From Alphaproteobacteria bacterium (GTDB lineage: Bacteria; Pseudomonadota; Alphaproteobacteria; DSM-16000; Inquilinaceae): 64,000 nt of DNA. Positions 36,466 to 42,599 of the stretch are shown here, piece after piece. The notes under the pieces were generated by a model. The model was not told the origin of the DNA and ran no database searches. It saw only the letters and a list, made by a program, of their open reading frames with translations. The stretch is from positions 1-64,000 of the forward strand of contig JANQIX010000054.1 in the NCBI GenBank assembly GCA_028281925.1. The letters run 5' to 3'. Within the stretch, counting starts at the first letter, position 1. Every line of letters starts with the position of its first letter. Made by a program: the position numbers and the translations under genes.

Positions 36466-36879
36466 TTATCTCTTGGACACCTCGAAGAACCGACCTGATC
36501 GGTGGAAAGAAGGCGGCAAGAGGCGGTCATGGCCCTCTTGGCGAGAGATTGGGGGCGGTGACTTGGTGCGGTCCGGCACGCGCCCGTCCAGTCCGAGGCC
36601 AAGAAAGCGCGTGACGCTGAGCCGGTCGCGGACCTGATACTCCGCCTGTTCATCCGACATGCCGCAGAGCGCCAGCAGCACCCGGATTTTGAACATCAGC
36701 ACCGGGTCAACCGGCGGCCGGCCGCCCTTGGGCCGGTCCGACCGCTGCAGCGCATGATCCAGGTCCGGCCGAAACAGCTCGAAATCGACCCCCGCCAGCA
36801 ATCGCTCCAACGGAGCGTCAGCTTCAGATAGCTGATCCAGGCGCTCGTCGCCGTCAAAGCAACCTGGCTGGTCCGCCAT
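36466..36879 (-). pseudogene. IS5-family transposase fragment
   Basis: N-terminal part of an IS5-group transposase: residues about 20-105 hold the DUF772-type helix block (PVDPVLMFKIRVLLALCGMS) and YQVRDRLSVTRFLGLGLDGR. After RVPDRTK the similarity ends at about 36560, and the remaining 30 residues are unrelated. The DDE catalytic domain is absent, and I see no matching inverted repeats, so it is a dead remnant. It lies between small-RNA candidates A and B and downstream of an orphan arsR. Confidence 0.8.
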
Positions 36880-38406: not shown

Positions 38407-39123
38407 CTATTCGGCGGCGGGCGCGTCTGCCTTAGCGACCTCAGCGGCCGTCTGCGCCCCGGAGGCGGGCTTCAGTAGCCAAGCGAAAACAGCCGTCGCG
38501 ACGATGGCCCCGACGCACTGGGCGGCGATGAATGCCGGCGCATGCGCTGGCGCAATTCCGCTGAACGTATCGGTGAACGATCGCGCCACCGTGACGGCCG
38601 GATTGGCGAAAGAGGTCGAGGCCGTGAACCAATAGCCGGCGGTGATGAACAGGCCGACCGCAAAGGGGACCGCTTCCGGTCGCCATCTGAGCGTACCCAG
38701 GATCGTCGCCACCAGGCCGAAGGTCGCGACGGCCTCGGCGAACCACTGGTCGCCGCCGGTCCGGTTGTTGGTGCTGGTCTGAAATACCGCCTCCGCAAAC
38801 ATCACATGTGCCGCCCACACCCCGGCCAGCCCGCCTGCGACCTGAACCGCGACATAGGCAATGGCGGCAGTGCCTGCGATTTCCTTCCGCAACAGGAAGA
38901 CAAGCGTCACTGCGGGGTTGAAATGCGCACCGGAGATCGGCCCGAACACAAGGATCAGGACCACCAGAATAGCGCCGGTGGCGATCGTGTTGCCCAAGAG
39001 GGCGATCGCGACATTACCGTCCGCCAGCCGCTCGCCCATGATGCCGGAGCCGACGACGGTGGCCAGAAGCAAAGCCGTTCCCAGCGCCTCTGCCGAGAGG
39101 CGCCGGGTCAGGTCGAATGACAT
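38407..39123 (-). CDS. aqpS: MIP/aquaporin family channel (AqpS-like)
   Basis: 238-aa six-helix channel with both NPA boxes (HFNPAVT at about residue 67 and FANPAVT at about 173). It is the last gene of an arsR-arsC-aquaporin operon, five-odd bases after arsC. In Sinorhizobium an aquaglyceroporin takes the place of an ArsB/Acr3 pump and lets arsenite, made inside by ArsC, flow out down its gradient; the same role is inferred here. A C-terminal Ala-rich tail of about 20 residues is unremarkable. Confidence 0.85.
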   Translation of the reverse strand: MSFDLTRRLSAEALGTALLLATVVGSGIMGERLADGNVAIALLGNTIATGAILVVLILVFGPISGAHFNPAVTLVFLLRKEIAGTAAIAYVAVQVAGGLAGVWAAHVMFAEAVFQTSTNNRTGGDQWFAEAVATFGLVATILGTLRWRPEAVPFAVGLFITAGYWFTASTSFANPAVTVARSFTDTFSGIAPAHAPAFIAAQCVGAIVATAVFAWLLKPASGAQTAAEVAKADAPAAE

Positions 39124-39129
39124 CGTGGA

Positions 39130-39648
39130 TCAGGCTCCCACGGTTTCGCTGGCAGACGTCTTGCCGATATCGTCCAGACTCTTCTGCAGCCCCAGCATGT
39201 CCAGCGATTCCAGTCGCAGGCTGGCGAAGATCTTGATGCGGTTCTCCAGCTCCAGATAGACGCGCTTGAAGAACTGATACGCCCGGTCGTCCGGGCCGAT
39301 GAAGGCGGCCGGATCCTCCGCGCCCCAATGGGCCGACATGGGTTGTCCCGGCCATATCGGGCAGATTTCCGACGCAGCCTGGTCACACACCGTGAAGACG
39401 AAGTCGAGCGGAGGGCTGTCCGGCTGCGCGAACTCATCCCAGTTCTTGCTGCGGAGATCGTCCGTCTTGTAGTTGAGATCCTGCAGCAGCCGGAGCGTCA
39501 TCGGGTGGATTTCGCCCTTGGGATGGCTGCCGGCGGAGAAGGAGTTGAAGCGGCCGGGGCCCCAGCGGCGGAGTGCGCATTCGGCCATCACGCTGCGGGC
39601 GGAATTGCCCGTGCACAAGAACAGGACGTTGTAGGTTCTGTCGGTCAT
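39130..39648 (-). CDS. arsC: Arsenate reductase, low-molecular-weight phosphatase type
   Basis: 172-aa enzyme. The P-loop CTGNSARS begins at Cys12, and the fold continues with FNSFSAGSHPKGEIHP and a Cys in FTVCDQAASE. The CTGNSARS sequence is that of thioredoxin/mycothiol-type arsenate reductases rather than tyrosine phosphatases. It reduces arsenate to arsenite, which the product of the following gene (aquaporin) can release. It lies 139 bases downstream of its arsR and six bases before the channel gene. A C-terminal extension of about 35 residues (RIKIFASLRLESLDML) is common in this subgroup. Confidence 0.9.
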   Translation of the reverse strand: MTDRTYNVLFLCTGNSARSVMAECALRRWGPGRFNSFSAGSHPKGEIHPMTLRLLQDLNYKTDDLRSKNWDEFAQPDSPPLDFVFTVCDQAASEICPIWPGQPMSAHWGAEDPAAFIGPDDRAYQFFKRVYLELENRIKIFASLRLESLDMLGLQKSLDDIGKTSASETVGA

Positions 39649-39787
39649 GGGGCCTCACGCTCGGCTGAGTGTTGGGTCGACAGCGCGCATACTATAGGAA
39701 TTGCAATGTAGGAATTGTGACAGCGGCATATTTGTGGGGCTCGGCTTCGGCAGGATCGGTGTGCACGAGGCCATCCCTTTGTCACCG

Positions 39788-40126
39788 TCAGTCGCCGCAG
39801 GCCGGAAACACGGCGTCAAGCAACGGCGCGCAAATCTCAGGCTGTCCCCGGCAGCAGTCTTGCATCAGGAACCCGAAGAGCCGGCGCGTGCCCGCCAGAT
39901 CGATCGCGTAGATGATCGAGCGTCCGTCCCGCCGGGACTGAATCAGGCCGGCCTGCACCAGCAGGCTCAGATGGCTCGAAAGCGTGTTGTGGGGAATGCT
40001 GAGCGCACGCGCGATCTCCCCAGCGGCGATGCCGTCCTGCCCGCATTCGACCAGCAGTCGGAAGACCTTGAGGCGGCTTTCCTGCGCCAATGCAGAGAGT
40101 GAAGCGACCGCCGTTGAAATGTCCAT
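39788..40126 (-). CDS. arsR: ArsR arsenic-responsive repressor
   Basis: 112-aa winged-helix repressor heading the ars operon. The helix-turn-helix is AGEIARALSIPHNTLSSHLS and the wing SRRDGRSIIYAID. The C-terminal Cys91, Cys92 and Cys99 match the three-Cys arsenite site known from Acidithiobacillus-type ArsR, whereas the ELCVCDL site of the plasmid type is missing. Binding of arsenite should release the repressor from its own promoter. A good -35 lies upstream (see 40133-40161). Confidence 0.9.
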   Translation of the reverse strand: MDISTAVASLSALAQESRLKVFRLLVECGQDGIAAGEIARALSIPHNTLSSHLSLLVQAGLIQSRRDGRSIIYAIDLAGTRRLFGFLMQDCCRGQPEICAPLLDAVFPACGD

Positions 40127-41066: not shown

Positions 41067-42599
41067 ATGGTCGGCGATCCTCAGCCGCAGGATAACGGGC
41101 AGCAAGACGGCCGACCGGGCCGGATCCGCAGGTTTCTGAAGGCTGTCTGGGCGCTCGGCTCCACCGACGGCCCGCGTCCCGATCTCTCCGCTGAAATCAA
41201 GGCGCTTGGCGATCACGCGTCAAAGAAGCTGGAAGAGGAAGTCCAGCGCCAGATTTCCGAGCTGATCCCACTGGCCTATCGGATCTGCGAACTGCGCACC
41301 ACCTACAGCGACCAGCTGGTCGCCATGTTCCGGTCGATCGTCCCCATGATCACGGCTGAGCAGCCCAACCTGACCGTCTGCCGCCGGATGTATGTCGAGA
41401 CTGCGCTGCTGGCCAACTGGCAGCGGTCCTGGGGAATGCGGCTCATCTACATGGTAGGGCGCGGCAGACCGGGCAGTGCCGCGCTGGCAGGAATGATCTG
41501 GGCGCTCTTGCTGGCCATGGTTGCCGCCTGGATGATCCTGTCCCAGTTCGAGCCGGACAATGCATCCCCCCCGATCGATCCCCCGGACCCGGTCACGGAA
41601 TCGGAAGAGGCGGAAGAAGGACCCACCGGACCCGACGACGAGCCTGCGCGGGCGGACTACTCATTCTCGGTCCAGGAGCATGCGGATCCGGGCGAAGTGG
41701 TCGGGCCGCTCGAAAGCAAGGCCACGGACGCAGAGCCCGTCTACACCATCATCGAAGGCAACGAAGATGGAGCGTTTGACGTCAACCATTCGGACGGAAT
41801 GCTGATTGTGACGGATGGCTCACTGCTGGACCACGAGACGGAGCCGGTCCGGAGGCTGACGCTGGAGGTGGCGGGCTCAGGGCTGCCGGTGACCGAGACG
41901 GTCAATGTGTTCGTCACCGATGCGAACGATCCGCCAACGATGGTGCATCAGATCTTCGTCGTCAGCGAACATGCAGCCCCCTCAACTGAAGTGGGGACGT
42001 TGACGGCCGAGGATCAGGACGAGGGCGAGGTTCTTTCATACGCCATCACCGCAGGGAACGAGGGCGGCGCGTTCGACGTCAATCTCGAGACGGGCCGTCT
42101 GAGGGTGGTGCAGCCCTCCTCCCTCAACTACGACCGCGTTCCGACGCTGACGCTGAAGATCGAAGTGTCGGACGACGACGGCGCCATAGGTGTCGGCACG
42201 GTCTCGGTCCACGTGACCCCGGGCAAGGAAGATCCCCTGACGCCTTACGACCGTAAGGACGTCTTCGCGCTCTTGATGTCGGCGTTCCTCGGCAGTCTGG
42301 CCAGCATCGTCGTGTCGTTGACCGTCACGCCGGAAACGTCAAACCTGCAGCCCTACGATCCGGCGACCGTCTTCATCCGGGCTTTTTTCAAGCCGCTGGT
42401 GGCCATGATCTTCTCGCTGGCCGTGTTCTCGGTGCTGAAGACGGAACTGGTGACGATCAGCGGGCTTAGCGTGTCGCAAGGTGGCGAGATCCAGTTCCAC
42501 ATGCTTTGGGTGATCGGCTTTCTGTCCGGATTCAGCGAACGGTTCGCACCGCGCATCTTCGGCCAGGTGTCCGGAGACGGGCAGCGTTCGGGGGCATGA
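41067..42599 (+). CDS. Multi-span membrane protein with two cadherin-like repeats
   Basis: 510-aa protein, architecture unfamiliar to me. N-terminal 130 residues are cytoplasmic and partly helical. A TM helix is at about 138-160 (GSAALAGMIWALLLAMVAAWMI), then an acidic Pro-rich linker. Two cadherin-type repeats (about 196-290 and 295-390) are recognisable by VQEHADPGEVVG/VSEHAAPSTEVG at the start, FDVN near the middle and (F)VTDANDPP between them. A membrane domain of three or so helices closes the protein (LMSAFLGSLASIVVSL, FFKPLVAMIFSLAVFSVL, VIGFLSGFSERFAP). GGGAGAG precedes the ATG. Monocistronic. Confidence 0.75.
   Translation: MVGDPQPQDNGQQDGRPGRIRRFLKAVWALGSTDGPRPDLSAEIKALGDHASKKLEEEVQRQISELIPLAYRICELRTTYSDQLVAMFRSIVPMITAEQPNLTVCRRMYVETALLANWQRSWGMRLIYMVGRGRPGSAALAGMIWALLLAMVAAWMILSQFEPDNASPPIDPPDPVTESEEAEEGPTGPDDEPARADYSFSVQEHADPGEVVGPLESKATDAEPVYTIIEGNEDGAFDVNHSDGMLIVTDGSLLDHETEPVRRLTLEVAGSGLPVTETVNVFVTDANDPPTMVHQIFVVSEHAAPSTEVGTLTAEDQDEGEVLSYAITAGNEGGAFDVNLETGRLRVVQPSSLNYDRVPTLTLKIEVSDDDGAIGVGTVSVHVTPGKEDPLTPYDRKDVFALLMSAFLGSLASIVVSLTVTPETSNLQPYDPATVFIRAFFKPLVAMIFSLAVFSVLKTELVTISGLSVSQGGEIQFHMLWVIGFLSGFSERFAPRIFGQVSGDGQRSGA

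Follow-up and report, generated by a model that had tools for sequence, protein, structure and literature searches.

Classical cadherin receptors are recognised by several extracellular cadherin (EC) repeats, a single membrane pass and a catenin-type tail, and giant bacterial cadherin adhesins by long repeat arrays combined with RTX-type GGxGxD nonapeptide repeats. In cadherins and RTX adhesins alike, tandem beta-sandwich repeats are stiffened by calcium held in their linkers (PMC7493085), and cadherin genes have been reported as enriched in sponge-associated metagenome-assembled genomes (MAGs; PMC8163846).

The protein described here is encoded in a 64,000-nucleotide stretch (the window, meaning the whole of the DNA analysed) of a 6.33 Mb alphaproteobacterial assembly. 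It shares with the EC1-EC2 pair of classical cadherins and protocadherins (PF00028) a score above the gathering threshold, the seven-strand fold, the LDHE, DAND and DQD motifs and a C-terminal repeat lying nearest the membrane. On the contrary, it is bacterial, the membrane also anchors its N-terminal end, which would make the pair a closed loop, and it displays two repeats and four transmembrane (TM) helices with no catenin-type tail. Its closest repeats are those of a giant bacterial cadherin/RTX adhesin of the same genome (2220-aa frame, G000:C21; 38-46% identity over pieces), but such adhesins are long arrays, whereas here just two repeats are found within an inner-membrane protein, for which Pfam returned no RTX match.

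Two cadherin repeats and the predicted calcium site between them

The gene is a 510-aa open reading frame with an ATG start and no internal stop, and its parts are collected in Table 1. PF00028 was matched in two stretches at 70.5 bits (cut-off 28.8, E 1.6e-19), and the orthologue from another genus of the family (G007) also exceeded the cut-off, at 29.6 bits. When compared with the PDB by phmmer, the protein matched CELSR1 at E 5e-23, together with many further vertebrate cadherins. The AlphaFold model, built from an input alignment of four rows only, displays 7+7 strands (residues 197-284 and 294-384) arranged as a seven-strand Greek-key beta-sandwich in each repeat, with pLDDT values of about 50-80 over the EC region. 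Foldseek retrieved P-cadherin EC1-EC2 as the top match of this model (E 2.3e-14), and EC2 alone fits cadherin-23 with 1.8 Å over 90 residues (Z 13.4, VIA-align). The whole EC1-EC2 pair showed a large rmsd to cadherin structures, probably due to a poorly predicted angle between the two modelled repeats; a separate model of the pair alone came out worse than the full-length run, and the latter was used throughout. As judged from profile and model, both repeats are genuine cadherin domains. The earlier note had proposed two cadherin-type repeats, to be checked by a domain search with cadherin profiles, and this claim is upheld by the domain search as well as by the predicted strands and the P-cadherin match.

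Table 1. Coordinates in the window of the cadherin gene, its protein domains and its motifs
Feature	Position	Strand	Basis
Whole gene, 510-aa inner-membrane protein with cadherin pair	41067..42599	+	ORF, Pfam, sequence search
Cytoplasmic helical N-terminal domain, residues 1-135	41067..41471	+	model, sequence comparison
TM1, residues about 136-160	41472..41546	+	hydropathy scan, model
Acidic, proline-rich periplasmic linker, residues 161-196	41547..41654	+	sequence
Cadherin domain EC1, residues 197-290	41655..41936	+	Pfam, model, Foldseek
E204, probable calcium ligand, XEX type, EC1	41676..41678	+	sequence; role as in other cadherins
D255-H-E257, LDRE-type motif of EC1 (LDHE), kept in G007	41829..41837	+	sequence
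D285-A-N287-D288, EC1-EC2 linker DXND motif, ligands kept in G007	41919..41930	+	sequence
Cadherin domain EC2, residues 291-386	41937..42224	+	Pfam, model, structure alignment
D316-Q-D318, DXD motif of EC2, aspartates kept in G007	42012..42020	+	sequence
D369-D370, XDX-type position of EC2 (SDD), kept in G007	42171..42176	+	sequence
Short tether EC2-TM2, residues 387-396	42225..42254	+	model, sequence
TM2, residues about 397-419, variant of family motif GxxGAxxS	42255..42323	+	hydropathy, alignment, model
TM3, residues about 436-458, family R/K at start (FFKP)	42372..42440	+	hydropathy, alignment
TM4, residues 473-492	42483..42542	+	alignment, model
GFSERFAP family signature, residues 488-495	42528..42551	+	alignment

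Residues of E204, LDHE, DAND, DQD and SDD are taken here to be calcium ligands, by the roles that such residues have in cadherins. All nine clear ligands (D255, E257, D285, N287, D288, D316, D318, D369 and D370) are identical in the G007 orthologue, although EC1 as a whole is only 42% and EC2 only 23% identical there; the counterpart of E204 is ambiguous in the pairwise alignment. The EC1-EC2 calcium site thus appears intact by sequence, and calcium binding there is predicted. On the contrary, positions needed for an EC2-EC3 site have not been kept: G007 has G in place of E301, and the LDRE motif of EC2 reads LNYDR in the window protein and is gone in G007. Since 9/9 ligands are kept while the next-repeat equivalents are gone or altered, selection seems to keep a single calcium site, inside the pair.

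Among the repeats collected, the nearest belong to the giant cadherin protein with RTX repeats, from the same genus and family, although the distances of EC1 and EC2 to them are large (>1 change per site). An adhesin may thus plausibly have supplied the two repeats, but at such distances this is a lead only. In the window's genome the giant protein is seemingly broken at contig ends, its start running off G000:C36 (88176-89141; L022, L071) and the remainder beginning at the end of G000:C21 (132102-133805; L034, L072); the same contig-end break is seen in G001 (C233, C142). Searching plasmids with the whole protein gave matches only to cadherin repeats of other proteins.

The membrane module and its first periplasmic hairpin

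The earlier note had described a helical N-terminus, one TM helix and an acidic linker ahead of the repeats, a layout borne out by the reading frame, the hydropathy scan and the model. The N-terminal domain is 51% identical in the G007 orthologue over residues 39-135 and is seen in no other architecture: a search of 327 genomes of the class returned only itself, comparison with the PDB gave just noise at E about 1, and neither Pfam nor the PDB revealed a recognisable effector fold. TM1 was called as one hydrophobic helix at residues 140-158, with positive charges on its N-terminal side, pointing to an N-in topology, which would place the cadherin pair in the periplasm. The linker that follows is rich in acidic residues and proline (12 D/E and 9 P among 38 residues).

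The C-terminal part was considered in the earlier note as a three-helix domain ending in GFSERFAP. Helices (about 396-419, 432-458 and 473-492) and motif are indeed present, but by sequence comparison they are TM2-TM4 of a dispersed four-TM module, followed by a tail of only about 15 residues. When residues 408-501 were used alone, a Bacteroidaceae protein matched at 29%; at E 0.001 a module profile found matches in 8/349 genomes of the phylum and a wider one in 13/385 genomes of the class, the few weakest being fragments or doubtful. Comparison by hhalign of the cadherin proteins with 11 cadherin-free relatives over TM2-TM4 reached a probability of 97.6% (E 4.3e-12), the highest value for 40 column-shuffled control alignments being 10.7%. 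Usual members consist of a variable cytoplasmic N-terminus, TM1, a short loop, TM2 with GxxGAxxS, an R/K residue, TM3, and TM4 with a GFSERLVP-like signature, in which the glycine and the acidic residue (GFSE) are nearly invariant across a diverse family. In the alignment, the window protein retains the G, S and GFSE positions that are conserved in the family. The single N-terminal helix most likely represents helix 1 of this module; members examined have a TM1 ahead of TM2, but its sequence varies too much for alignment, and confidence of the model is low there, the membrane part mostly having pLDDT <50.

Members of this module (G122, G280, G424, G578, G635, G000:C4 and the Bacteroidaceae locus L003) thus resemble the window protein in TM2-TM4 homology, GxxGAxxS, the R/K of TM3, GFSE, a variable cytoplasmic N-terminus and N-in orientation, but they have a short TM1-TM2 loop and no cadherin. 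In the hydropathy scan, TM1 and TM2 are separated by 240 aa in the window protein and in its G007 orthologue, and by 3-30 aa in most of those relatives for which the two helices could both be called. Because of this difference in length, the cadherin pair is, as far as sequences tell, a domain insertion in the TM1-TM2 periplasmic hairpin of an existing kind of membrane protein, not a loose assembly of parts. Further long inserts, of 110, 112 and 357 aa, occupy the same place in three relatives, being about 110 aa in G278 and G182 and the longest in G016, from the family of the window's genome. These proteins belong to the same module by profile, joining it through the profile of the 11 relatives (89-94%) and not directly through the cadherin proteins, and their inserts are not cadherin. 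Towards its C-terminus the G016 member (L075, G016:C81 6028-6312) shows a sub-threshold match to a helix-turn-helix (E 0.02), which makes it a possible membrane-bound regulator.

No convincing match to the module was found in Pfam, NCBIfam (run with the cadherin protein only), PADLOC, PHROGs (four proteins each) or the PDB; the PADLOC run, empty for its four module members, gives no link to defence. The phage search gave no match, viral contigs searched with the C-terminal domain, the cadherin pair and profiles A1, A3 and A6 yielded no relative, and the C-terminal domain was not found on plasmids. The strings GFSERL, GFSERLVP, GFSERFVP and GFSERFAP did not occur in the partly covered literature searched, and titles and abstract openings on bacterial membrane or periplasmic cadherins mention no such architecture.

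A second member in the window's genome (G000:C4, L070 9147-10166) sits directly upstream of genes that by eye resemble those for a mobilisation protein and a relaxase, possibly on a mobile island. In a Bacteroidaceae MAG (L003 5512-7160), two tandem members adjoin glycan-synthesis-like genes.

Orthologues, selection and gene surroundings

Three orthologues are known, including that of the window. The earlier note had suggested counting genomes with the same domain order, and these amount to 3/17 of those examined from the GTDB family. One copy, 95% identical, lies in a genome of the same genus and has the same flanking genes on both sides, and the G007 orthologue is 47% identical. The MAG carrying the 95% copy is IP29b_bin.19, and IP29b denotes an Isopora palifera colony in a paper on the coral skeleton microbiome (PMC9868349).

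Silent changes strongly outnumber amino-acid changes, with dN/dS of 0.08 over the whole gene and 0.04 both in EC2 and in TM2-4. Considering (i) the intact frame, (ii) the 95% and 47% identical relatives and (iii) this ratio, the sequences indicate that the gene is maintained under purifying selection. Identity to the G007 orthologue is 70% in TM2-4, 51% in the cytoplasmic domain, 42% in EC1 and 23% in EC2; stronger conservation of TM2-4 and the cytoplasmic domain than of the loop is as expected if these parts are the working core.

Between the two same-genus copies, silent sites diverge about three times less over linker and cadherins (41547-42224) than in the rest of the gene on either side, with changes at 13/128 versus 43/149 four-fold sites (p 1.4e-4). 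This looked like recombination, but windows in proA and in the kinase gene dip equally low.

In the window's genus, proA lies downstream, followed by nadD-rsfS-rlmH, an order that by eye is of alphaproteobacterial type, and the neighbourhood in G007 differs. Neither in the neighbourhoods of the own genus nor in that of G007 was a partner gene, operon or regulated target found around the cadherin gene, and a promoter scan upstream of it did not find a sigma-70-like site. Elsewhere in the window, an ORF at 36466-36879 (-) resembles by eye the truncated N-terminus of an IS5-type transposase, and at 38407-40126 (-) an aquaporin-like channel (PF00230), a low-molecular-weight phosphatase (PF01451, arsenate-reductase-like by eye) and an ArsR-type regulator stand consecutively, in what looks like an arsenic cassette. 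Contig JANQQD010000028.1 (L002) is ~90% identical to the window; its MAG is titled Anaerolineae, yet is placed in the window's genus.

Possible roles of the putative cadherin rod

We tentatively favour a role in sensing the envelope, or in coupling the two sides of the inner membrane mechanically, by means of a calcium-stiffened periplasmic cadherin strut. Calcium held between EC1 and EC2 would convert the pair into one stiff rod ~9 nm long, with EC2 pinned to TM2 via ~10 residues and EC1 as the far tip, which a flexible, acidic and proline-rich strap of ~36 residues would tie back to TM1. A strap of 36 residues would extend to ~12 nm versus the ~9 nm of the rod, long enough to run alongside it. 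Standing on the membrane, the rod would form a closed loop with two feet in it, one of them continuous with the cytoplasmic domain. Any change at the tip (a peptidoglycan or other glycan ligand, envelope tension, loss of calcium) might then be passed to TM1, which would run straight into the cytoplasmic helical domain. Higher conservation of the TM and cytoplasmic parts than of the rod suits, on sequence grounds, a sensor or coupler with a diverging input, and also a tether on a conserved machine.

Architecture and calcium-site evidence are equally compatible with a passive tether or spacer, a reading that we consider rather doubtful, in which the rod fixes the inner membrane to peptidoglycan or envelope polysaccharide, or keeps a constant spacing between them, and no signalling takes place. 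Given the usual dimensions of the envelope, a rod ~9 nm long could extend from the inner membrane as far as the peptidoglycan, bacterial cadherin domains have reportedly been found to bind polysaccharide in work on Saccharophagus degradans, and the neighbourhoods examined contain no signalling partner. On the contrary, identities of 70% in TM2-4 and 51% in the cytoplasmic domain, the most conserved parts, exceed the apparent need of a mere anchor, and many relatives retain the membrane module without any periplasmic domain. The earlier note had proposed a periplasmic sensor or tether joined to the membrane on both sides; the two anchors stand, as does the periplasmic location by predicted topology, and the data suit sensor and tether alike.

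Distinctly unlikely is that the module acts as a pore or transporter, with the cadherin pair as a calcium- or ligand-controlled periplasmic gate or docking lid. The glycine-rich TM2 (GxxGAxxS) and the nearly invariant G and E of GFSE suggest tight helix packing and a polar functional site, but profile searches of Pfam, NCBIfam and the PDB produced only sub-threshold similarity to channels or transporters, none of it convincing, and the structure is not confidently predicted.

A cell-surface adhesin making cell-cell cadherin contacts is very improbable, even though the closest repeat relatives lie in the giant RTX-type protein of the same genome and the plasmid matches are repeats of large surface-type proteins. 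Only two repeats are present, presumably too short a span to pass the outer membrane from such a position, both ends are in the membrane, and neither a long array nor any RTX or secretion feature is found. Since the membrane part is made of hydrophobic helices and shows no beta-barrel, and given the two-sided anchoring and the repeat number, an outer-membrane protein or adhesin was set aside as unlikely, in agreement with the earlier note, which had excluded an adhesin. A functionless product of chance fusion in recent times or of faulty assembly, as the presence in only 3/17 family genomes examined might suggest, is hardly credible for an architecture shared by 3 genomes of 2 genera at 47-95% identity, with intact frames, dN/dS of 0.08 and conserved ligands.

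Together with the sensing or coupling reading, a broader and fairly unlikely proposal may be considered, namely a calcium-dependent envelope sensor of a novel type. The module would be a general platform for signalling with four TM helices, and its periplasmic TM1-TM2 loop a slot for interchangeable sensors, being empty, filled with another insert or occupied by the cadherin pair. Through such a slot, force in the periplasm, calcium or contact with a glycan would be coupled to an output domain in the cytoplasm.

The protein points to cadherin domains that work within the bacterial envelope, and not on the cell surface, when inserted into an integral membrane protein. It also brings to light a dispersed membrane module that is absent from all the curated libraries searched. 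Should the loop indeed be a slot for sensors, comparison of members with an empty loop, another insert or the cadherin pair could reveal what the module does.
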